Assembly (NCBI GenBank): GCA_025060325.1
Contig: JANXBW010000014.1
Location: 77,860 to 119,667 of the forward strand
Direction of reading: 5' to 3'
DNA: 41,808 nt
Origin: Thermoguttaceae bacterium
GTDB taxonomy: Bacteria > Planctomycetota > Planctomycetia > Pirellulales > Thermoguttaceae
Shown: one piece after another, positions 10,317 through 20,980 of the stretch
Numbering within the stretch: position 1 is the stretch's first letter
Layout of the letters: each line of letters begins with the position of its first letter
Position numbers and translations under genes: made by a program
The notes under the pieces: generated by a model
What the model was told of the DNA's origin: nothing
The model's input: only the letters and a program-made list of their open reading frames with translations
Database searches by the model: none

Positions 10317-13300
10317 CTAGCAAAAGTCCCGGGACATCGGCGGAAATTCGTTTATCTTTTCTGACAGGTCGATCAATTTTCCCACCCGGATGTGGATTAC
10401 CTCCCCTTGTTTTTGAAGTCTCCCCTGGGCCAGCAGTAAAGTAGCGGTCAACCCGGCCTTTCGCCATTTGCGCCATACATCTGGACGGATGATCAGATTC
10501 GCTTGGCCGGTCTCATCTTCCAATGTCACGAAAGTGATCCCTTTGGCGGTAGCTGGTCTTTGCCGAACGAGCACCACTCCGGCCACTTTCACCGGCGCTC
10601 CATCCGGCAGAGAGGCCAGTCGGCAAGCAGGAACGACCTTTTGGGCGGTTAGCCATTGCCGCAGGAAGCTAAGGGGATGAGCACGCAGCGAAAGCCCGAG
10701 CATCCGGTAGTCAGCAACTACTTCCTCCACAGCACTCATGGGAGGCAGGAATTGCCTGCAGGACTGACCGGCCTCACTCCCGGGCCGGTCGCCCTCCTTA
10801 CCTAATGAGGCTGGGGCAAGTTGTGGACAACCCGGAACCGTATGGCTTCCCACCTCCGCAGTTGGCTGGCTTACCCTTTCGTTTGCTGACAAAGCGTTCT
10901 CTCCAGTTAAACCCGGATCAGTATCTTTTGTTTCAAAGAGCGGGAGGGAGACCGCAGGCACAAGGCATTCCCAGAGGCTCTGCCGGCGCGAAAGTCCTAG
11001 CGAGCTAAAGGCCCCCGCCTGGGCCAGGAGGCGCATGGTACCGGAACCCAGCCCGGTGCGCTTTCTAAAATCATCCACAGAGCGGAAGGGTCCTTGTTGC
11101 CGAGCTGCCACGATCCGCTCCACCGCCGCTGGGGAAAGCCCCCGCACCAAGTGGAAGCCTAACCGAATGGCAAACGGTCGGTGCTTTTGCCCCGGCAAGA
11201 CAGGAGGGGTGGGCTGAGGGTAGTTTTGTCCATTTAAACTTCGCCCACCTGGGGATAAGGTTAACTCCCCCGGTGGGGCAAGTCGCAAGGGATGTTCACC
11301 TCGGGGCGGCCTCGCTATCTTTCCGTTGTTGACAGTCCCAAGATCAAATAATGACCCATCCTCTACCTTTCCCCCAGGCCGGATAGCCAAAGAAACACCG
11401 CCTACCGAAACCACCGGACCCGAGCAGCCCGATATGCCGTTCTCTCCGGCCGGCTCAAGCGTTGTCTCCCAAAAGCTTGCGTTGATATCTACTGCTCGAA
11501 CCGCCACCCCATGGGCTTGTGCATCCTGGATGAGCTGGGCCGGGGCATAAAAACCCATAGGCTGACTATTCAGCAGGGCAGCCGTGTACACTTCTGGATA
11601 GTGGCATTTAATCCACGCTGATACGTAAACAAGCAAAGCAAAGCTTGCTGCGTGCGACTCCGGAAATCCGTATTCCCCAAAACCCCGGATCTGGCGAAAG
11701 GCAGCCTCGGCATATTCCGGGGTTAAACCGTGGGCGAGCATCCCCCGGATAAAGCGCTCACGCATTTGGTCAATCAGTCCTGGTCGGCGCCAGGCCCCCA
11801 TGGCCCGCCGAAGTTGATCGGCCTCCTCCGGAGTAAAACCCGCCCCCACAATAGCTAGACGCATCGCCTGCTCCTGAAAGAGCGGCACCCCCAGTGTCTT
11901 TTCCAGGACTTGGCGGATAGCCTCGTTGGGATAGACGACAGGTTCCTCCCCACTGCGTCGCCGCAAATAGGGATGAACCATGTCTCCCTGGATCGGTCCG
12001 GGGCGAACAATCGCCACTTCGATAACAAGATCGTAAAACGACCGCGGCTTCATTCGCGGCAGCATGGCCATCTGGGCCCGACTTTCGATTTGGAAGACCC
12101 CCATCGTATCGGCCCGCTGGATCATCGCATAAACAGCCGGATCCTCCTCGGGGATGGAGTTCAGGGTCAGCTTTTGCCCGTAGTGCTTTTCCAGTAGATC
12201 AAAAGACCAGCGGATGGCCGTCAGAATTCCCAGGGCTAGACAGTCGACTTTGAGGATGCGCAGTTCATCCAGATCGTCTTTATTCCACTGGATGACTGTT
12301 CGCCCGTCCATTGCGGCATTTTCAATAGGAACAAGCTCGCACAATGGACCGCGGGTGATTACCATCCCACCGGTGTGTTGCGACAGATGACGCGGAAACC
12401 CCATCAACTCGGTGGCAAGTCGGACCAGCTGGGCACCGACTGGACTGTCCGGATCTATGCCCACCTCTCGGCAGCGCTCTGCCAGTTCCGGTTCGTACTC
12501 AAAGTGCTCAATCTGCTTGGCCAGGCGATCCACGCGATCAAGCGACAACCCCAGCGCTTTGCCCACCTCCCGCACCGCCAGTCGCGAACGGTAAGTGATC
12601 ACCTCCGCTGTCATCCCAGCCCGGTCGCGGCCATATTTGCGGTAAATGTACTGGAGGACCTCTTCACGGCGGTGGTGTTCGAAGTCGACATCAATGTCCG
12701 GTGCTTCATTGCGCTGCCGACTGACAAATCGCTCAAACAGGAGGTCTATCCGTTCCGGATCGACGGAGGTAATTCCGAGCACATAGCAGACGGCAGAGTT
12801 GGCTGCCGAACCACGCCCTTGGCACAAAATGCCGCGACTTCGGGCAAAGGAAACGAGGTCCCAGACGGTCAAAAAATATGCTTCGTAGCGAAGTTCTTCG
12901 ATCAGGCGAAGTTCGTGCTCAAGAAGCTGGCGGACTTTCTCCGGGATGCCCTCCGGCCAACGACGAGCCGCCCCCTCCCACGTCAACTTTCGGAGGAAAT
13001 CCATCGGCTGCATCCCTGCGGGGGCCAATTCCTCCGGATAGTCGTAGCGGAGCTCGCTAAGGCAAAAAGAACAGCGATGGGCAATTTCCTCCGTACGGGC
13101 CACTAGCTCCGGATAGCGGGCAAATCGCAGGGCAATTTCTTCCAGCGACTTAAGATGCCATTGGGCATGGGGCTGAAGGTGCTCCTTAATTTCTGCAAGT
13201 GGGGATCCCAGCCGAATGGCCGTTAACACATCTTGAAGAGGCTGGCGGTCTGGGTGATGGTAGCGGACACCACCGCCTGCTACCGGCGGGATCCGAACGG

Positions 13301-13889
13301 CCCGAGCAAGCTCCACTAGATGGCGAAGGTATCCGGCGTCGTCCGGCCCATAGAAAGGTTCCACCACAAGATAGGTCCGATCACCAAAGATCCGGCGGTA
13401 GTGGGGGAGCCACTCTTCGGCGAGCTGGCGGTAAAAATGTCGATCAAGCAAGGCGGGGGAAAAAGGGAGCCGTTGGCCACTTGCCGCCTCTTCCGGGTTC
13501 CGAACGGGTGGTTGGGGAAGGACACAAGCCACCAACCCCTCGCTGTGTTCTGCGAGGTCCTGTCGCCACAAAAGACACTGTCCTTTGGGGACCCGCAACC
13601 GGCCCAGACTGATAAGCCGACACAAATGGCCGTAGCCCACGCGATTCATCGCAAGCAAGACCACTGGCGGCGTGTCCACAGGCGTGATTTCCGCCCCCAC
13701 TAAAAGTTTGAAGCCGAGATCCTTGGCGGCGGCATATGCCCGGACAATCCCGGCCAAGCTATTACGATCGGTCAGGGCCAAAGCCGTGTAACCAAGCGCA
13801 TGAGCCTGCCGGACAAGCTCGTCCGGATGCGACGCAGCTAGGAGGAAGGAAAAATTGCTCTGAGCATGGAGCTCGGCATAACCGCTCAT
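10317..13889 (-). CDS. dnaE2: Error-prone DNA polymerase DnaE2 (ImuC)
   Basis: This 1190-residue C-family polymerase does translesion synthesis after DNA damage together with ImuA and ImuB. In order (residues counted from ATG 13889): PHP domain (AELHAQSNFSFLLAASHP at the N-terminus), palm with the catalytic aspartates in PDIDVDFEH (about 397-405) and KVDCLALG (about 547-554), fingers, helix-hairpin-helix segment (about 915-965), and a C-terminal OB fold (VKVAGVVLVRQRPATAKG then FVTLEDETG). SLPLF near residue 980 resembles a clamp-binding motif. ATG 13889 fits the family start and overlaps an upstream stop as ATGA; the frame stays open to TTG 13928. Two Gly/Pro/Ser-rich stretches absent from ordinary DnaE2, about 813-902 and 987-1049, interrupt the sequence between conserved blocks, and both hold DNA hairpins. 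Last gene of the imuA-imuB-dnaE2 cassette. Confidence 0.95.
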   Translation of the reverse strand: MSGYAELHAQSNFSFLLAASHPDELVRQAHALGYTALALTDRNSLAGIVRAYAAAKDLGFKLLVGAEITPVDTPPVVLLAMNRVGYGHLCRLISLGRLRVPKGQCLLWRQDLAEHSEGLVACVLPQPPVRNPEEAASGQRLPFSPALLDRHFYRQLAEEWLPHYRRIFGDRTYLVVEPFYGPDDAGYLRHLVELARAVRIPPVAGGGVRYHHPDRQPLQDVLTAIRLGSPLAEIKEHLQPHAQWHLKSLEEIALRFARYPELVARTEEIAHRCSFCLSELRYDYPEELAPAGMQPMDFLRKLTWEGAARRWPEGIPEKVRQLLEHELRLIEELRYEAYFLTVWDLVSFARSRGILCQGRGSAANSAVCYVLGITSVDPERIDLLFERFVSRQRNEAPDIDVDFEHHRREEVLQYIYRKYGRDRAGMTAEVITYRSRLAVREVGKALGLSLDRVDRLAKQIEHFEYEPELAERCREVGIDPDSPVGAQLVRLATELMGFPRHLSQHTGGMVITRGPLCELVPIENAAMDGRTVIQWNKDDLDELRILKVDCLALGILTAIRWSFDLLEKHYGQKLTLNSIPEEDPAVYAMIQRADTMGVFQIESRAQMAMLPRMKPRSFYDLVIEVAIVRPGPIQGDMVHPYLRRRSGEEPVVYPNEAIRQVLEKTLGVPLFQEQAMRLAIVGAGFTPEEADQLRRAMGAWRRPGLIDQMRERFIRGMLAHGLTPEYAEAAFRQIRGFGEYGFPESHAASFALLVYVSAWIKCHYPEVYTAALLNSQPMGFYAPAQLIQDAQAHGVAVRAVDINASFWETTLEPAGENGISGCSGPVVSVGGVSLAIRPGGKVEDGSLFDLGTVNNGKIARPPRGEHPLRLAPPGELTLSPGGRSLNGQNYPQPTPPVLPGQKHRPFAIRLGFHLVRGLSPAAVERIVAARQQGPFRSVDDFRKRTGLGSGTMRLLAQAGAFSSLGLSRRQSLWECLVPAVSLPLFETKDTDPGLTGENALSANERVSQPTAEVGSHTVPGCPQLAPASLGKEGDRPGSEAGQSCRQFLPPMSAVEEVVADYRMLGLSLRAHPLSFLRQWLTAQKVVPACRLASLPDGAPVKVAGVVLVRQRPATAKGITFVTLEDETGQANLIIRPDVWRKWRKAGLTATLLLAQGRLQKQGEVIHIRVGKLIDLSEKINEFPPMSRDFC
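10766..10790. repeat. Perfect 8-bp hairpin in dnaE2 (second insertion)
   Basis: GACCGGCC (10766-10773) and GGCCGGTC (10783-10790) form a perfect stem with a 9-base loop. A weaker stem, GCAGG/CCTGC, lies just before it. Both lie in the variable segment of dnaE2 ahead of the conserved EEVVADYRMLGLSLRAHP block. Confidence 0.55.
11244..11277. repeat. 34-base imperfect palindrome in dnaE2 (first insertion)
   Basis: CCCACC pairs with GGTGGG and, after one mismatch, GGGGA pairs with TCCCC around a 10-base loop: 11 of 12 positions paired. It lies inside the 90-residue low-complexity segment of DnaE2 that separates VDINASFWETTLEP from HRPFAIRLGFHLVRGL. Confidence 0.6.
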
Positions 13890-14224
13890 GGCTTTGCTGC
13901 CCAACGCGCCCTGGCCATTCTCGTGCAAGGGTGCCAGTGATCCAACCCCCTCCTTGTCAACGCTAGGCTCCCTCTCCCTTTTGCGGGAGGGCTGTCTGCG
14001 GCAAGCCCGGTAGAGCTACCCTTTTTGTTGCCGGAACGGTCCTTTCCCTGTTTTTTCCGGGCGAACCCTACCCTCCATGCCAGGAAGACTTCACCCACCG
14101 CACTCCCGGGTTTGTTTACAAAATCTCTCCGCTTCTTAGCGAGCAAGTTTTCAAAATCCGTTTCGGCCATCCCGAGTTGCCAGCGGCCAAACGAGGGCAG
14201 CTGCCACCTATGTTGGGGACTCAC
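13886..14224 (-). CDS. Possible small ORF between imuB and dnaE2
   Basis: I do not recognise this frame. It starts at GTG 14224 (or ATG 14170) and its TGA overlaps the dnaE2 ATG as ATGA, the layout of translationally coupled genes. The predicted product of up to 112 residues begins with a charged, helical-looking part (MAETDFENLLAKKRRDFVNK) and ends in a basic, Gly/Ser/Arg-rich tail. It fills the 350-base space that separates imuB from dnaE2 in an otherwise tight cassette. Neither start has a good ribosome binding site and the tail composition is unlike a folded protein, so it may be only a leader or untranslated spacer. Confidence 0.3.
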   Translation of the reverse strand: MSPQHRWQLPSFGRWQLGMAETDFENLLAKKRRDFVNKPGSAVGEVFLAWRVGFARKKQGKDRSGNKKGSSTGLAADSPPAKGRGSLALTRRGLDHWHPCTRMARARWAAKP

Positions 14225-14239
14225 CGCTCGTGCGGGGGA

Positions 14240-15889
14240 TTAATCGAAGAAACCGTGGAGGAACCACTGGCCGGTGTCAAGCTGGCGAAAGAGCCAGAAC
14301 CGCTGCCCGGTGATGGTTTCCGCCCGGTAATAGTCCCGCCTGACCTTCTGGCCGCGCCACCAGCCAGTTTCGATTCGCTCCGGTCCCCAAGCGCGGACAA
14401 CTCGATAATGCTTTCCTTTGAACACAAACTGTGCAGGTGTTCCCAGTGGACACATAATCACATAGCGAACCGGTATCGGTTGGGCAAGGAGGGTAGCCGG
14501 TCGCGGAAGTGCCTTCCCTTTTTCCGCTTGGTTCTTTCCCCAACCTGGAGGCCGGTCGGCAGAGGCCGGGAGCCTTCCCCCCACAGGGCTTGCTGCCCAG
14601 CTTCGCTCCGGCTGCACTTCCCCTGTAAGCACCGGCAAGCAAATAGCCCCCGATCCCAGCCGGGCCTGAAGCCGATCCACCACCTGGCTTATCTGACCGG
14701 GACGGCTGCGTTGACAAACCTGCCCCGCAAACCCGAAAGACCCTTGCGCTGCCGACAGGGGAGCCGTCTGAAGAACAAGGAGCTCCACCTGGCGAATACC
14801 CCCTTGGTAGCTCACTCCTTCCAGTCGTACTTCGAGGACACCCAGGATATGCTCCCTGTTGACGGTTGGTTGGTGGAAAAGTAGCTCTACAGGAATTTCC
14901 CGCCGTCGAGGGGGTGTTCCGGTTTCTTCACCTAGCACACAGCGAAGAGCCAGCACACCTTCGTTTTTAGCCACAAGTGGGGGAAGGATTTTGTCAACAA
15001 GCCCTGATAAAGCGCGGAGGAGATCATCCCGCTCCTCTATGGGCCATTCGCTGGCCAGGCAAACTTTAAGGGTTTCCGGAGTGGGCAGGAAAGAGAGGGC
15101 TTCCGGCAGGTGGCCGATCGCCTCCTGCCACCGCCGCCATAACTGGGGACCAAATCGACAACACCATTCTTGTGGAGGAACCCGCGCAAGCTGATCTAAT
15201 GTATATATCCCAAGTTGAGAAAGAAGATCAACGACCTCTTCCTCCACTCGCAGGCAAGCCACTGGCAAAGGCCGGAGAGCTTCCGCCGTTTTGCCCGGAG
15301 GAATAATCCGCCACGTCCCCTCCGCCCGGTTTTGGCTGTCTTCTTTCTCCCACCCATAATGACAGATAGCCCAGGTGGCAGAGGCGGTATCGGCCACTGC
15401 TATTCGGAAGGTAAGCCCTAGGGGGGAAAGGGCCTGGGCAAGCCGGCAGCAGAGGGCTTCCTCACCCCCAAAATAAAACGCGGTGGTGGTGATATCGATC
15501 CACACCATCCCAGTGGCTATCCCCGGGTCGACTGCCACCTGGGGAGAAAATTGTTGACAAAAATAGCCCAGGGCCTCTAGCACCCGACGATCTGCCACGG
15601 GATCCCACGCCTGCCCGCGGAGGTTTTCCCTGCCGGCAAGTGCGATAGCTTCCGCGAGGGTCATCCCCGGCCTTATCCCCAGGACCTCTGCCTGCTTCGA
15701 ACAAAGAAGGACCCGGGCTATCCTCCCCTGCCGATGCCAGATCACTGTGGGAGCCTCTTCCTCGGCAGAGGAAACCGGACAAGGATCCTCAGGCAGGTGC
15801 AGACTCCCCTCAGGCCCCAGCAGTGCTTCTAATCGCTGCCGCTGAAAAGGCCAGTGGGGGAGCATTATGCCAACAATCCGCCCACTCAT
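14240..15889 (-). CDS. imuB: ImuB, catalytically inactive Y-family polymerase-like protein
   Basis: This protein (549 residues from ATG 15889) is the hub of the ImuA-ImuB-DnaE2 translesion complex. It has the Y-family fold order: SGRIVGIMLPHWPFQRQRLE at the N-terminus where true polymerases have a catalytic Asp, then DPGIATGMVWIDITTTAFYFGGEE where the catalytic SIDE motif is lost, a helix-hairpin-helix segment (LLSQLGIYTLDQLARVP), a little-finger region, and the ImuB-type tail DYYRAETITGQRFWLFRQ then WFLHGFFD. ATG 15889 has GGAG about 10 bases upstream and fits the family; the frame is open to 15922. It overlaps the 3' end of imuA by 80 bases, so translation is probably coupled. At about residue 378, where relatives carry a QLxLF clamp-binding motif after PLAPR, this one reads PLSAAQGSFGF. 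Confidence 0.93.
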   Translation of the reverse strand: MSGRIVGIMLPHWPFQRQRLEALLGPEGSLHLPEDPCPVSSAEEEAPTVIWHRQGRIARVLLCSKQAEVLGIRPGMTLAEAIALAGRENLRGQAWDPVADRRVLEALGYFCQQFSPQVAVDPGIATGMVWIDITTTAFYFGGEEALCCRLAQALSPLGLTFRIAVADTASATWAICHYGWEKEDSQNRAEGTWRIIPPGKTAEALRPLPVACLRVEEEVVDLLSQLGIYTLDQLARVPPQEWCCRFGPQLWRRWQEAIGHLPEALSFLPTPETLKVCLASEWPIEERDDLLRALSGLVDKILPPLVAKNEGVLALRCVLGEETGTPPRRREIPVELLFHQPTVNREHILGVLEVRLEGVSYQGGIRQVELLVLQTAPLSAAQGSFGFAGQVCQRSRPGQISQVVDRLQARLGSGAICLPVLTGEVQPERSWAASPVGGRLPASADRPPGWGKNQAEKGKALPRPATLLAQPIPVRYVIMCPLGTPAQFVFKGKHYRVVRAWGPERIETGWWRGQKVRRDYYRAETITGQRFWLFRQLDTGQWFLHGFFD

Positions 15890-16676
15890 CCCAGAAGATC
15901 TCCACTGCCTTTTTGTGGACAAAAGCCCCTCGACTCCGCACCAGTTCTACTTGCCAGCCCCAACAGTCCTCGCTTCCCTTCCGGGCTAGAGGGCGGACCA
16001 CAAGCTCAATATCCGCCCACAGGGAATTTGTGCCCCGGTCAAGCGGGCGAAAGAAAAAGCCTAAGCTCCCCTTTTGCTCCACCGCCAGCAGGAAGCGCCG
16101 ATAGACAGCCCGGCTGCAGCTAGGGAGATCGGTCCAAAGGATGGCGCCTTTGCCCCCTTCCAGCACTTGTCCGATAGCCCACAGGAGATCCCTCTTAGTT
16201 TGTGGATAAATGAGGATGATGGCCTCAAGAGGTATCCCGGCAGCCTGCGCTGCCAGAGGATAAAACTCCCTCCGGGGATCGACGACAAAAAGGACACCAC
16301 TCTTGGCCACAAGTGGTTTTAGGCTTGCCAAAGCTATTTGCTTAGCCCCTGCCCCTTGGCCGGAACTTAACCACTGGACAATTGTCCCCCATTGCCAACC
16401 CCCATGGGGGAGGAGACTATCGAGCGCCTGGCAACCGGTGGAAACGGGTTTTTCGCCGCGGGCTGGTCGCCACTGGGCTTCGCAGCGGAGGATTGCCTCC
16501 CGAAGCTGTGCCACAATCTCCTGCCGGGTAACTTCGCTAATAGATATTTGTTCACCATGGTGATGAAGACACAGATCTTGCTTCCTAGGGAAAAGGATCT
16601 CTTGGGCCGGCTGATGGCCTTCCGAGGGAAACCCGCCCAAAAGATACCGGAGATCGTCCACCGCCTGGAGTACCAT
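15810..16676 (-). CDS. imuA: ImuA, RecA-like mutasome accessory protein
   Basis: This RecA/SulA-related partner of ImuB belongs to the damage-induced mutagenesis cassette. The conserved core begins with VSTGCQALDSLLPHGGWQWG and continues through VLFVVDPRREFYPLAAQAAG, AILWTDLPSCSRAVYRRF and a C-terminal GWQVELVRSRG. The position of the Walker A loop holds SSGQGAGAKQIAL, without the GKT/S of active RecA, as usual for ImuA. I place the start at ATG 16676 because GGAGG lies 10 bases upstream, giving 288 residues. The frame is open 25 codons further to ATG 16751, but that segment overlaps a near-consensus promoter. The gene opens the imuA-imuB-dnaE2 cassette and overlaps imuB by 80 bases. Confidence 0.9.
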   Translation of the reverse strand: MVLQAVDDLRYLLGGFPSEGHQPAQEILFPRKQDLCLHHHGEQISISEVTRQEIVAQLREAILRCEAQWRPARGEKPVSTGCQALDSLLPHGGWQWGTIVQWLSSGQGAGAKQIALASLKPLVAKSGVLFVVDPRREFYPLAAQAAGIPLEAIILIYPQTKRDLLWAIGQVLEGGKGAILWTDLPSCSRAVYRRFLLAVEQKGSLGFFFRPLDRGTNSLWADIELVVRPLARKGSEDCWGWQVELVRSRGAFVHKKAVEIFWDEWADCWHNAPPLAFSAAAIRSTAGA

Positions 16677-16697
16677 AGTAGGGGAACCTCCGCTAAG

Positions 16698-16726
16698 AAT
16701 GTACATCGGTATATTACTCGTGTCAA
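16698..16726 (-). promoter_or_regulatory. imuA promoter with palindrome over the -10 box
   Basis: On the minus strand a perfect TTGACA (16726-16721) and TACATT (16703-16698) are separated by exactly 17 bases, and GGAGG follows at 16691-16687, 10 bases before ATG 16676. The 8-base palindrome ATGTACAT (16699-16706) covers most of the -10 box, where a LexA-type repressor could bind. This would make a short leader of about 15 bases. The promoter is well supported; the operator role is inferred from position and from the known damage control of this cassette in other bacteria. Confidence 0.6.
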
Positions 16727-17096
16727 TCCCTGGAGATATATATTTTTTCACTATCTTTTCCTTACTCCCCCACTATGTGGACATCCGTACCATGCCTTTG
16801 CCGGACAGTTCCCCGAAGCCACGGAAAAAGCCCCACCTATTTCCCCCCATCGGCGACAATCTTTGCCCTTCCCATTTCGTTGCCTTCTTTTGCCTTTCCT
16901 CCGTTTTTCGCCTTTTCTCTTTTACCGCTATTGCCTAGAAAACAAACCGGCTATAATCCCTGCCACAAAAACACGGGATGTTGGCTTCTGGGATGGCTTC
17001 ACCGCAGGGGCAGAAAATCCCCCAGCCTAAAGAGCGACAACTCCTGGCTTAATCCAGCGGCTTAACAACGGCAGAAGTGCCAGTAGGACTGAGGCT
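16727..17096. other. Divergent intergenic region upstream of imuA and the enolase-like gene
   Basis: This region holds no credible gene. It is pyrimidine-rich on the plus strand from 16740 to 16930. A perfect TATAAT at 16952-16957 with TTGCCT 15 bases upstream could drive the plus-strand gene at 17097, with a leader of about 130 bases; the spacing is short, so this is tentative. Confidence 0.4.
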
Positions 17097-18155
17097 GTGC
17101 GAGTTCCTGTTATCACGGACATCGAGCTGTTTTTAATCCAGGCTCCCGTGGCCGAGACGGACCTCCCGGTCCGCACCGTCCTTTTCCACCTGGTTAGTGA
17201 TCTGGGAACCGATGGGTGGGGCGAGGCCCAATTGGCTTGGCGGCCCACGGAGCTGACCGCCCGCCGGGAGATGCTCCTTAACATCCTCGCCGGCCGAAGC
17301 GTGTTCGATTTGGAAGAACTGGCGGAGATCCCCTCACTTCGTCCCGCTGCCCTTCGCTGCGGCATCGAACTTGCTTGTTGGGACCTCGTGGGCCGATTTA
17401 TTGGCCAACCGGTTTGCCGGCTTCTCGGTGGCGAGTATCGTCATTACGTGCCCCTGGCGGTCCGGCTCCCCGGAGACCGTTGCCATCTGCCCGAGGTGGC
17501 TCTTGAGCTCCTCCACCAGGGATTTGACACCCAAATCCTCTCCACGTGTGGTCAGGTGGATGCCGATGCCGAGGTTGTTCAACTTCTCACGCAGCTTGGC
17601 CGAGGCCGGATCCGGCTCCGGTTGGATGGAGCGGGCGCTTTCGATTGGGAGGCTAGCCGAAAGCTTTGCGAACTTCTGGAAGATCAAGGGCTGGAATGTT
17701 TTATCGATCCCTTAAGGGACTATGACCTGGCGGAGATGGCCTCCTTAGGGCGGCAGACCGAGCTTCCCTTGGCCGCGTGGCGCTCGGTTACTTCGCCGCG
17801 GGAGGTGATGGCCATTGCCCGGACTGGCGCAGCCAAGAGCGTCATCATCGAACTTCAGCGGGTCGGCGGGATCCTGGCCGCGCGATACTGCGGAGCCATT
17901 GCCCGCGCTGGGGGACTAGAGGTTTCCTTGGCCAGTGGACCCTCTTTGGGCATTGCCGCGGCGGCGCTCCTCCACTTGGCCGGTGCTAGTCCCGTTTTTG
18001 CCACCTGTAACGAATGCGGCTATTTTTCAATGAGGGACGACGTACTGGCCCGGCCGATAGAACGTGTTCAGGGGCTTGGCCGAATTCCTTTGGAGCCAGG
18101 CTTTGGTGTTTCGGTGGACCGCAATAAGCTCGAGGCCCTTCAGGTGCCGTTTTAG
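17097..18155 (+). CDS. Enolase-superfamily protein with degenerate active site
   Basis: This 352-residue protein (GTG start at 17097) has the mandelate racemase/muconate lactonizing fold: an N-terminal capping domain (IELFLIQAPV, VLFHLVSDLGTDGWGEAQ) and a TIM-barrel with family landmarks ALRCGIELACWDLVGRFIGQPVCRLLGG (86-112), RLDGAGAFD (175-183) and SVTSPREV (230-237). The catalytic set is mostly missing. The KxK pair on barrel strand 2 is QIL (145-147), the second metal ligand region reads CFIDP with a residue deleted, the third ligand is replaced by Trp-Arg (228-229), and the strand-6 Lys is Glu (252). Only Asp177 remains clearly. It may be a non-enzymatic protein or use different chemistry. 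A MoxR-like gene follows 180 bases downstream on the same strand. Confidence 0.85.
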   Translation: MRVPVITDIELFLIQAPVAETDLPVRTVLFHLVSDLGTDGWGEAQLAWRPTELTARREMLLNILAGRSVFDLEELAEIPSLRPAALRCGIELACWDLVGRFIGQPVCRLLGGEYRHYVPLAVRLPGDRCHLPEVALELLHQGFDTQILSTCGQVDADAEVVQLLTQLGRGRIRLRLDGAGAFDWEASRKLCELLEDQGLECFIDPLRDYDLAEMASLGRQTELPLAAWRSVTSPREVMAIARTGAAKSVIIELQRVGGILAARYCGAIARAGGLEVSLASGPSLGIAAAALLHLAGASPVFATCNECGYFSMRDDVLARPIERVQGLGRIPLEPGFGVSVDRNKLEALQVPF

Positions 18156-18334: not shown

Positions 18335-19363
18335 ATGGTGGTGGAAGCAGATCTCCAGGCGGCAATTAATCGCTGCTACGAGGCCTGTCAACGTTTGGTG
18401 GCGATTTTGCGCGAAAGGGTCGTGGGCCAAACCCAATTGATTGAGCAAGTGTTGACAGCTTTCCTGGCCCAGGGGCATGTGCTTGTGGAAGGAGCATCCG
18501 GCGTAGGTCGGAGCTTGATCGTCTCCACGTTGGCAAAAGCTCTCCAGGGAAGCTTTCGCCAAATCTTTTTAAGCCCAGACCTTGTGGCCGCCGATCTGGT
18601 GGGTCGGGAGGTGCTGATCGAGGATCAAACCACCGGCCAGCGCCGCCCCCATTTGGAGCCGGGGCCTATCTTCGCAAACTTCGTGGTCGTGAGGGACATC
18701 CAATTTGCTTTACCGCGGATTCAGTCGCTTTTGATGGAAGCGCTGGAGACCGGGATGGTCACCGTGGCCGGGCGGCAGCGAGAACTTCCCCGGCCATTCC
18801 TTGTCCTGGCTACCCAAAACCCGGCCATTCAGCACGAAATCCATCCTCTTCCGTACGAACATTTGGATCGGTTCCTTTTTTTCGTTAAGGCCGACTATCC
18901 CTCCGCTGCGGACGAATGGCGCATTGCGCGATCTGCTCAGGCAAAGGTCCGCGACCCAGAGCCGCTCCTAACTCTTGCTGAGTGGCAGGATTTTGCTGAT
19001 CTTGTAGACAAAATTGTTTATCCGGAGCGGCTCCTTGGGTACACCTGGGCCCTTGTTCGAGCTTCGCGTCCCCGGGCGGCAGACTCCCCGGACTTTGTCG
19101 ACCGCTGGATAGCCTCCGGGGCAAGCACGCGCGGACTTGTAGCCTTCGTCCGCGCTGCCAAAGCCCGCGCCCTTCTTTGTGGACGAGCGGCGGTTGGTTT
19201 GGAGGACATCCAGGCCGTGGTTAAGCCAATCCTTCGTCACCGCATTACGCCAAATGAGGCGGCTGAAGCTCAGGCCCTTAGCTCCGATGCCCTGATCGAT
19301 ATGATCATGGAGGCCGTTCGGCCTGATCGCACTTACCCCCCGCCGGAATTGTCAGGCGATTAG
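18335..19363 (+). CDS. MoxR-type AAA+ protein with degenerate Walker A and B motifs
   Basis: This 342-residue protein aligns with MoxR chaperone ATPases along its whole length: VVGQTQLIEQVLTAFLAQGHVLVEG, RQIFLSPDLVAADLVG, EPGPIFANFVVV, QSLLMEALETGMVTV, VLATQNPAIQHE (sensor 1, 158-169), LPYEHLDRF and the C-terminal lid helices. The nucleotide site is altered. Walker A reads GASGVGRS (53-60), with Arg for the invariant Lys, and the Walker B DE is replaced by RD in FVVVRDIQ (116-123), where active members have a hydrophobic run and then DEINR. ATP hydrolysis is therefore doubtful. Active MoxR proteins normally sit beside DUF58 and VWA genes; neither is here. The neighbour is a likewise degenerate enolase-like gene upstream. 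The start ATG 18335 is preceded by a purine-rich GGAAGGGAA. Confidence 0.9.
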   Translation: MVVEADLQAAINRCYEACQRLVAILRERVVGQTQLIEQVLTAFLAQGHVLVEGASGVGRSLIVSTLAKALQGSFRQIFLSPDLVAADLVGREVLIEDQTTGQRRPHLEPGPIFANFVVVRDIQFALPRIQSLLMEALETGMVTVAGRQRELPRPFLVLATQNPAIQHEIHPLPYEHLDRFLFFVKADYPSAADEWRIARSAQAKVRDPEPLLTLAEWQDFADLVDKIVYPERLLGYTWALVRASRPRAADSPDFVDRWIASGASTRGLVAFVRAAKARALLCGRAAVGLEDIQAVVKPILRHRITPNEAAEAQALSSDALIDMIMEAVRPDRTYPPPELSGD

Positions 19364-19558: not shown

Positions 19559-20980
19559 CTAACGGCTGATGTGGGCCAAGACAAGTGCAAAAGCAATAAG
19601 GGCAACCGGCAGAAGGACAAACAGGATAAGAGCGCCCAAAATTCCTGCCGGGGAGGGCCCGGTCTCTTGGTTACCGCCTTCCTCCGGTCCATCCGGCCGG
19701 GGTTGCCAGCTCCCGTCATACGATGGCCTGCCCGACTTCAGAATAGGAGCTTTTGTCTGTTCGCTCTCGCTGGGCCAAGAGAGCCCCCGGTCATCGCCGG
19801 TTCCTGCGGCCCCCGAGGCTGCCGGTCTACTCGCCTCTGCCGTGGCCGATTGGCTTGCGATCTCCCTAGATGGCCAGGTTAAAGACACCGCCGCTTGCGC
19901 CTGTTTCCTTGCATGAACGGCCAAGGCGTATTCGCCGGGAAGCATCGCCGGATTGACCCACGGCCCAAGTCTGAGCACGACCTCCAAGGCGCTTGCCGGC
20001 CTTTCTTGCGGATCCTTGGCCATCATCTGGGTAATCAGCTCGCATAGCTCCGGCGACAGCTTGGGATTAAGCTCCCGCGGGTCCACCGGCCGCTTTTCCA
20101 AATGGGCACGCATTTTCTCTTCCGTGCTTCCTTCCGGGAAAGGGACCCGCCCGGTGACTGCATAATAAAGCGTGCAGCCTAAGGAATAAATATCCCATGC
20201 CGGCTTCGGATCCCAAGGGGCCGTGATGTGATCCGGTGCTAAATAGTCAACAGTGCCGGCGATTTTCGCCTGGCGCGTCCCCAGAAGCTCGTCGCCGAAC
20301 AGGGAACTTGCAAAACCCAAATCCGACAGTTTGGCCCGGCCTTCCGGGGAGACAAGCACGTTGCCCGGTTTGACATCTCGGTGAATGAGACCTCGGCGAT
20401 GGGCGTACTCCAGGCCCAGGGCAACTTGGGCGATGATGGTGGCCGCCTCTGTCTCCGGCAAAGGTCCGCTTGCCTGAACATACCGGCGCAAATCAAGCCC
20501 TGGAACATATTCCAGCACTAAATAGTACACACCGCCGTCTCTGCCGGCATCCAGGGCCCGCACCAAGTTAGGATGATCCAACGCGGCCAAGGTGCGGATT
20601 TCCTGCAAGAATCGCTCCACCCGCTCTGGGCTGGCCCGATCCCGGGGCAAAACTTTTATCGCCACTTCCCGTCCAAGGAATTCGTGTACACCCTTGAAGA
20701 TATGCCCCGTTCCGCCTCGCCCTAAACCGTCCACAACTCGATAGGGACCAAGCGTGAACTTCACCCGGCCGTCAAGGAGCTGTTTGACCTGCCAAGCGTT
20801 CAGAAGACCGCGGGCAACCGCTTCCTCTCCCAACAGTTCGCCGCGGACTCGGGGATCGGCAGGCAGTTGGCCCCCGGAGCGGGTGCGGACTGCCTCCGCC
20901 AACTCGGCGATCTGCTCATCGCTGAGAAGGCCTGACTGCCGAGCACATTCTTCGAAGCTCAGCCGCATCTGTTCGGCCAC
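19559..20980 (-). CDS. Membrane-anchored Ser/Thr protein kinase
   Basis: This is a 473-residue bacterial eukaryotic-like kinase. Residues 1-75 form a helical N-terminal domain (LSDEQIAELAEAV, VARGLLNAWQVKQLLDGR) common ahead of planctomycete kinase domains. The kinase domain (80-345) has the Gly loop GLGRGGTG (85-92), the ATP lysine in VAIKV (109), catalytic HRDVKPGN (200-207), DLG in place of DFG (220-222), and LAPD where APE is usual. A Ser/Ala/Pro-rich linker (370-445) leads to one C-terminal membrane helix (448-470), so the kinase should face the cytoplasm with almost nothing outside. All catalytic residues look intact. GTG 20980 is preceded by GGGGAGG at good spacing. The substrate cannot be read from the context; neighbours are not obviously related. 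Confidence 0.93.
   Translation of the reverse strand: MAEQMRLSFEECARQSGLLSDEQIAELAEAVRTRSGGQLPADPRVRGELLGEEAVARGLLNAWQVKQLLDGRVKFTLGPYRVVDGLGRGGTGHIFKGVHEFLGREVAIKVLPRDRASPERVERFLQEIRTLAALDHPNLVRALDAGRDGGVYYLVLEYVPGLDLRRYVQASGPLPETEAATIIAQVALGLEYAHRRGLIHRDVKPGNVLVSPEGRAKLSDLGFASSLFGDELLGTRQAKIAGTVDYLAPDHITAPWDPKPAWDIYSLGCTLYYAVTGRVPFPEGSTEEKMRAHLEKRPVDPRELNPKLSPELCELITQMMAKDPQERPASALEVVLRLGPWVNPAMLPGEYALAVHARKQAQAAVSLTWPSREIASQSATAEASRPAASGAAGTGDDRGLSWPSESEQTKAPILKSGRPSYDGSWQPRPDGPEEGGNQETGPSPAGILGALILFVLLPVALIAFALVLAHISR

Follow-up and report, generated by a model that had tools for sequence, protein, structure and literature searches.

A MoxR-type AAA+ protein with a rewritten ATP site, retained in one genus of the Thermoguttaceae

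The window, that is, the whole 41,808-nucleotide stretch of DNA that was analyzed, lies on contig C5 of a 4.78-Mb Thermoguttaceae genome and contains a complete open reading frame (ORF) for a 342-residue MoxR-type AAA+ protein (Table 1), referred to below as the window MoxR. According to Pfam, this protein carries an AAA_3 domain covering the full profile (E 7.7e-33) and an AAA_lid_2 domain (E 2.1e-16), both above the curated cut-offs, and has no match to a VWA/integrin I domain. A scan with NCBIfam returned no family above cut-off, the magnesium chelatase D subunit family TIGR02031 scoring 29.1 bits against a cut-off of 499.55. Genome-wide there are eight AAA_3 matches: besides the window MoxR, six (E 3.6e-63 or better) are full-length MoxR proteins in which the Walker motifs are normal, and one is weak. 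A clear DUF58 gene lies beside three of these six other MoxR genes, and a weak DUF58 match beside one. Elsewhere in the window, we noted two very long ORFs and a possible mutagenesis cassette, whose 1203-residue gene might, at a guess from its position and length, encode DnaE2.

Table 1. Features of the window, with positions counted from its first nucleotide.
Feature	Position	Strand	Basis or remark
MoxR-type AAA+ protein with rewritten ATP site, 342 aa	18335..19363	+	ORF, Pfam, motif reading, AlphaFold2 model
Walker A position GASGVGRS, residues 53-60, Lys59 to Arg	18491..18514	+	KT in 61/61 orthologues read outside the genus
Walker B position FVVVRDIQ, residues 116-123, Asp120 to Arg, Glu121 to Asp	18680..18703	+	RD in 3/3 genus species, DE in 61/61 outside orthologues read
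Sensor 1 ATQNP, Asn162 kept	18809..18823	+	7/7 orthologue-invariant residues of 157-163 kept in all three species
LDRF, Arg179 kept, arginine-finger position just ahead of model strand 5	18863..18874	+	Motif reading, model, PMC7159879 (accessible part)
Sensor 2 segment GASTRG, Arg266 kept	19118..19135	+	Motif reading
Enolase-superfamily (MR_MLE) protein lacking the usual catalytic residues, upstream neighbor	17097..18155	+	Beside MoxR in 3/3 genus members
Ser/Thr protein kinase, convergent downstream neighbor	19559..20980	-	Same arrangement in 3/3 genus members
Possible imuA-imuB-dnaE2 type mutagenesis cassette	10317..16751	-	ImuA match below cut-off, IMS-domain match above cut-off
Very long ORF, 1697 aa	29416..34509	+	
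Very long ORF, 1335 aa	34639..38646	-	

An earlier note on this DNA had described a MoxR chain in which the Walker A lysine reads Arg and the Walker B Asp-Glu pair reads Arg-Asp, with sensor 1 and the LDRF arginine kept. Both substitutions are present as described: residue 59 is Arg, encoded by CGG at 18509-18511, and residues 120 and 121 are Arg and Asp, encoded by AGG and GAC at 18692-18697. The sensor 1 and LDRF residues are likewise kept, as is the sensor 2 Arg; the arginine-finger position of MoxR proteins was taken from the accessible part of PMC7159879. The window MoxR lacks the combination of Walker A GxxxxGK[ST] and Walker B DE by which an active MoxR ATPase was defined. At least two bases must change to turn any Lys codon into CGG, and three to turn any Asp codon into AGG. 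Since each altered motif requires at least two to three base changes, no single sequencing error explains them, and with the Walker B change present in three separate assemblies, a sequencing or assembly error is ruled out.

To examine the fold, we used an AlphaFold2 model built from a 35-sequence alignment, for which 34 sequences were taken from the 80 MoxR loci of a public scan. The model has a mean pLDDT of 91.9 and a pTM of 0.90, with lower confidence in the P-loop block (pLDDT 81) and in residues 161-170 (pLDDT 78). The closest solved structure is 2R44, which it matches over its full length with a TM score of 0.87 by query length (0.87/0.90); the other top matches are mostly MCM helicase chains, RavA following at rank 29 and BchI at rank 33. 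The AAA+ fold is thus predicted to be intact despite the changed ATP site. The two domains, the full-length fold, and the position in the tree described below all agree with the earlier assignment of the whole chain to MoxR.

We then asked how the altered motifs are distributed among relatives. Arg-Asp in place of Asp-Glu was found in all three sampled species of the genus (Thermoguttaceae, Pirellulales; separate assemblies), and Arg in place of the Walker A Lys in two of them, the window species (G000) and G001. Searches in 60 genomes from relatives and 119 from the family placed the sequences of G001 (77% identity; motifs GASGVGRG and VRDI) and G002 (59%; GVPGIGKS, with the Walker A Lys kept, and ARDI) nearest to the window MoxR. 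All 61 orthologues read outside the genus carry KT and DE. These were collected at E <= 1e-75 from 319 genomes of the order that were at least 90% complete, with six candidates scored per genome; 62 of the genomes, the three of the genus included, gave a match, and two less complete genomes of the family were added. Not one of the 64 orthologues read lacks the Asn of sensor 1, the Arg of LDRF, or the Arg of sensor 2. In the wider public scan, whose 80 MoxR loci were found by two conserved peptide patterns and are so biased towards conserved sequences, the 78 loci besides two genus members all have K and DE. MoxR matches in 277 plasmid records were all below 60% identity. The earlier note had proposed looking for a conserved clade with Arg in Walker A and Arg-Asp in Walker B. 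Such a clade exists within one genus as far as Arg-Asp is concerned (3/3), and the Walker A Arg reaches only two of its three species. Normal motifs in close relatives, which that note would have taken as a sign of isolated mutations, are the rule outside the genus (61/61) and not inside it. The idea of an isolated mutation did not hold up, the Walker B change being common to all three species.

In a phylogenetic tree, the three genus members group together (100/100) on a long branch inside the canonical orthologue clade (98/100), a group of 23 rows made up of 19 canonical orthologues, the three genus members, and one further deviant MoxR, L024 in G003 (G003:C178:5598-6572). The latter is 42% identical to the window MoxR and, at E 1.8e-74, lies just outside the 1e-75 threshold; it keeps the Walker A Lys, reads DQ (ADQ) at Walker B and ATRNP at sensor 1, and brings the canonical count to 61/62 when included. 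It joins the three genus members on a very long branch (91/94), and its placement without them is not settled. Two distant paralogues, L098 and L099, were excluded from the tree without genus members and from the count of invariant residues given below. Each genus genome has one member of the orthologue clade at E <= 1e-74 and no second canonical copy. Parsimony places the Walker B change in the genus ancestor and the loss of the Walker A Lys later, on the branch leading to G000 and G001.

In relatives, the gene belongs to a conserved gene order, c3-c2-c1-MoxR, present at all 11 loci with enough flank, and a DUF58 gene follows MoxR at 10 of them. The first three are large genes; in the representatives scanned, Pfam matches were obtained only for c3 (DUF7408) and the DUF58 protein (also VWA_2). 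In the three genus genomes, which are 92-98% complete, searches with c3, c2, c1, and the operon DUF58 gave no match at orthologue level. The best c3 matches in these genomes reach 31-33% identity, compared with 51-52% in two relatives with the operon, and the DUF58 matches reach 38%, compared with 64-74% in relatives. For c2, two genus genomes gave no match and G001 a weak one (E 1e-7), and for c1 none of the three gave a match, compared with E 2e-48 or better in relatives. As the earlier note had it, the window MoxR stands away from the usual DUF58/VWA partners: none of the seven neighboring proteins scanned with Pfam matched either domain, and the genus is without orthologue-level operon partners. 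The L024 gene, too, has no operon genes beside it. A locus on contig C1 of the window genome (L246, G000:C1, 5595-11342) contains a DUF58 gene, a c3-like gene, and a gene for a 771-residue protein, with no MoxR adjoining. Because the DUF58 gene found with the same query in G002 shares a contig with another, putatively canonical MoxR, the C1 locus was not assigned as a partner of the window MoxR; our partner search identified none.

The immediate neighbors are those listed in Table 1. Across 20 enolase-like loci with a flank of up to 1.5 kb, MoxR is present at the three genus loci only. The enolase-superfamily protein lacks the paired Lys motif and has Arg for the third metal-ligand Glu. Seventeen related enolase-like proteins (L102-L118) are also without both motifs, and the distant L119 has both. 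This neighbor has the appearance of a pseudoenzyme that occurs throughout the family.

We next considered whether the protein is still under constraint. Codon-position differences were used instead of dN/dS because silent sites were saturated, most NG86/YN00 values not being computable. Between G000 and G001, 70, 33, and 203 differences fall at codon positions 1, 2, and 3, respectively, in 339 codons (p = 9e-35 against equal positions), which indicates that protein-level constraint persists after the loss of both motifs. The two proteins are 77% identical, compared with 88, 97, and 97% for three MoxR paralogues of the same two genomes, and the ten window neighbors range from 51 to 90%; the faster change than in the paralogues would also fit partial relaxation. 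Slow decay, in which the operon partners were lost, the ATP site drifted, and the gene is on its way out, would agree with this faster change, with the lost partners and the long branch, and with the occurrence in three species only. It nevertheless appears improbable. The ORF is intact in all three species even though the proteins of G001 and G002 have diverged from that of the window at 23% and 41% of their residues, respectively, the strong third-position excess is found between the two most derived copies, and only 61 of 5000 simulated copies, in which half of the observed differences were placed randomly on one copy, were free of stops.

The 19 canonical orthologues have 154 invariant residues in common, of which 75 are also found in each of the three genus species. 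By segment, 2/21 are kept in Walker B and the next helix, 6/14 in Walker A, 7/7 in the sensor 1 segment, and 26/42 in the lid (p 0.0005 for the segment comparison, the segments having been picked after the motifs were seen), and the segment ahead of the arginine finger is much changed (5/16). Because about half of the invariant residues (75/154) are kept anyway, the keeping of R179, N162, and R266 is weak evidence when taken alone. At 18 orthologue-invariant positions, all three genus species carry an identical new residue; common changes in or near the site are A58G, L72G, D120R, E121D, T129I, A132L, M137L, and Q138E. Between G000 and G001, the two rewritten segments are identical at 14/16 and 21/25 residues, compared with 77% overall. 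The comparison of 35/41 with 227/298 elsewhere is not significant (p 0.23), so the data are no more than suggestive of the rewritten site being better conserved between these two species than the remaining protein.

Some P-loop proteins with a Lys-to-Arg replacement still bind nucleotide, RecA K72R being one example, and in the altered site, too, nucleotide binding or a weak turnover could persist. A stronger version of this idea is that the P-loop Arg and the Arg-Asp pair form a working site of altered geometry, with nucleotide or some other phosphate compound as its ligand. Speaking for it, the substitutions at and around the site are common to all three species rather than random, and a comparison of G000 with G001 shows the site to be conserved at least as well as the remaining protein. 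According to the accessible part of PMC9976466, however, the MoxR protein NorQ uses its Walker B Asp to bind Mg and the Glu for catalysis, and an Arg at the Mg-binding position is hard to square with Mg-ATP; we therefore hold such a site to be unlikely.

The reading that we favor, with a probability of roughly two in three, is that the genus has retained the window MoxR as a non-hydrolysing protein, or pseudo-ATPase. It would act by binding, and its place might be in a ring, as a regulatory or adaptor subunit. The starting point would be a MoxR orthologue from the DUF58 operon, the sole copy in the genus, that was kept although the genus is without the operon partners. In a first step its Walker B would have gone from DE to RD in the genus ancestor, and in a second its Walker A from K to R in the window species and its sister, as judged from a genus sample of three species. 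The resulting protein would no longer hydrolyze ATP and would work through binding, with its fold, lid, sensors, and arginine finger kept; its most plausible form would be a non-hydrolysing ring or adaptor subunit. Loss of ATP hydrolysis is the most likely consequence of the two changes; ring formation, a mixing of rings, and any partner or client are likewise matters of inference. In the available text of PMC9976466, NorQ with the Walker B change E109Q is described as keeping about 2% of its ATPase activity and as being mainly hexameric with ATP.

A sharper form of this pseudo-ATPase reading would make the window MoxR a regulator within a mixed ring: it would join one of the genome's six further full-length MoxR proteins in a hetero-oligomer, offer its arginine finger to the neighbor's site, and modulate the ring as ChlD does ChlI. 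This would be in line with the arginine finger and the residues of sensors 1 and 2, which none of the three species has lost, and with the normal motifs of the six other MoxR genes in the genome. The earlier note had likewise thought of a regulatory or scaffold member of a mixed AAA+ ring, a role that would fit these residues and the ChlD precedent. However, the window MoxR is not co-located with any of those genes, the 18 common new residues are equally compatible with a new homomeric assembly, and Synechocystis ChlD keeps its Walker Lys and Glu, the Lys being needed, as far as the consulted parts of the ChlD literature go, so that the parallel is one of action and not of motif loss. We regard a mixed ring as possible, if doubtful. 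More speculatively, once freed from the DUF58 operon, this MoxR might have specialized as a non-hydrolysing subunit whose task is to regulate or rewire the ring of another MoxR, perhaps with the enolase-superfamily pseudoenzyme as an associate, in a ChlD-like conversion that took place stepwise within one genus.

MoxR proteins occur widely but are poorly understood, and the usual view is of chaperones that are driven by ATP and work in pairs with VWA proteins. Here, a lineage without the operon partners has kept its MoxR while the ATP site was rewritten step by step, which would suggest that the binding role of MoxR is separable from its motor role. It also offers a matched series for testing a ring without hydrolysis, namely, an active orthologue, the Lys-kept intermediate of G002, and the fully altered form. 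In the open-license literature, we found no paper on MoxR as a pseudoenzyme, on MoxR in Thermogutta, or on MoxR with DUF58 in planctomycetes. The case looks like a motor part retained for another job, which is unusual and not a new kind of machine.

Among known systems, the nearest are the canonical orthologues in the operon of Thermoguttaceae and Pirellulales (e.g., L012 in G026 and L013 in G009), which share clade and domains with the window MoxR and are 40-49% identical to it; they differ in carrying KT and DE and in that their gene comes after a DUF7408 gene and two large ones with no Pfam family, and usually before a DUF58 gene. CHU_0153 of Cytophaga hutchinsonii (PDB 2R44), a putative MoxR-type ATPase, resembles the window MoxR in whole-length fold and in sequence (E 1.7e-43), whereas the P-loop Lys and DE are present in its alignment. 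Catalytically inactive AAA+ domains encoded with a MoxR are described for MoxR-vWA conflict systems in the accessible part of PMC7159879; there, the inactive part is an iSTAND or N-terminal FtsH-type domain that has lost P-loop and Walker B, and not MoxR itself. In its mode of action, a possible parallel is ChlD of magnesium chelatase, placed in the same helix-2-insert branch of AAA+ proteins as MoxR (PMC7159879, in the same part). In the sections available of PMC6604950 and PMC3789969, ChlD, for which no ATPase activity was observed, is said to regulate the chelatase allosterically and acts on an active AAA+ partner. ChlD differs in its C-terminal integrin I domain, in the Walker Lys and Glu present in the Synechocystis protein, and in having a ChlI-type partner, none being known for the window MoxR, whereas both would be helix-2-insert AAA+ subunits that act without hydrolyzing ATP themselves.
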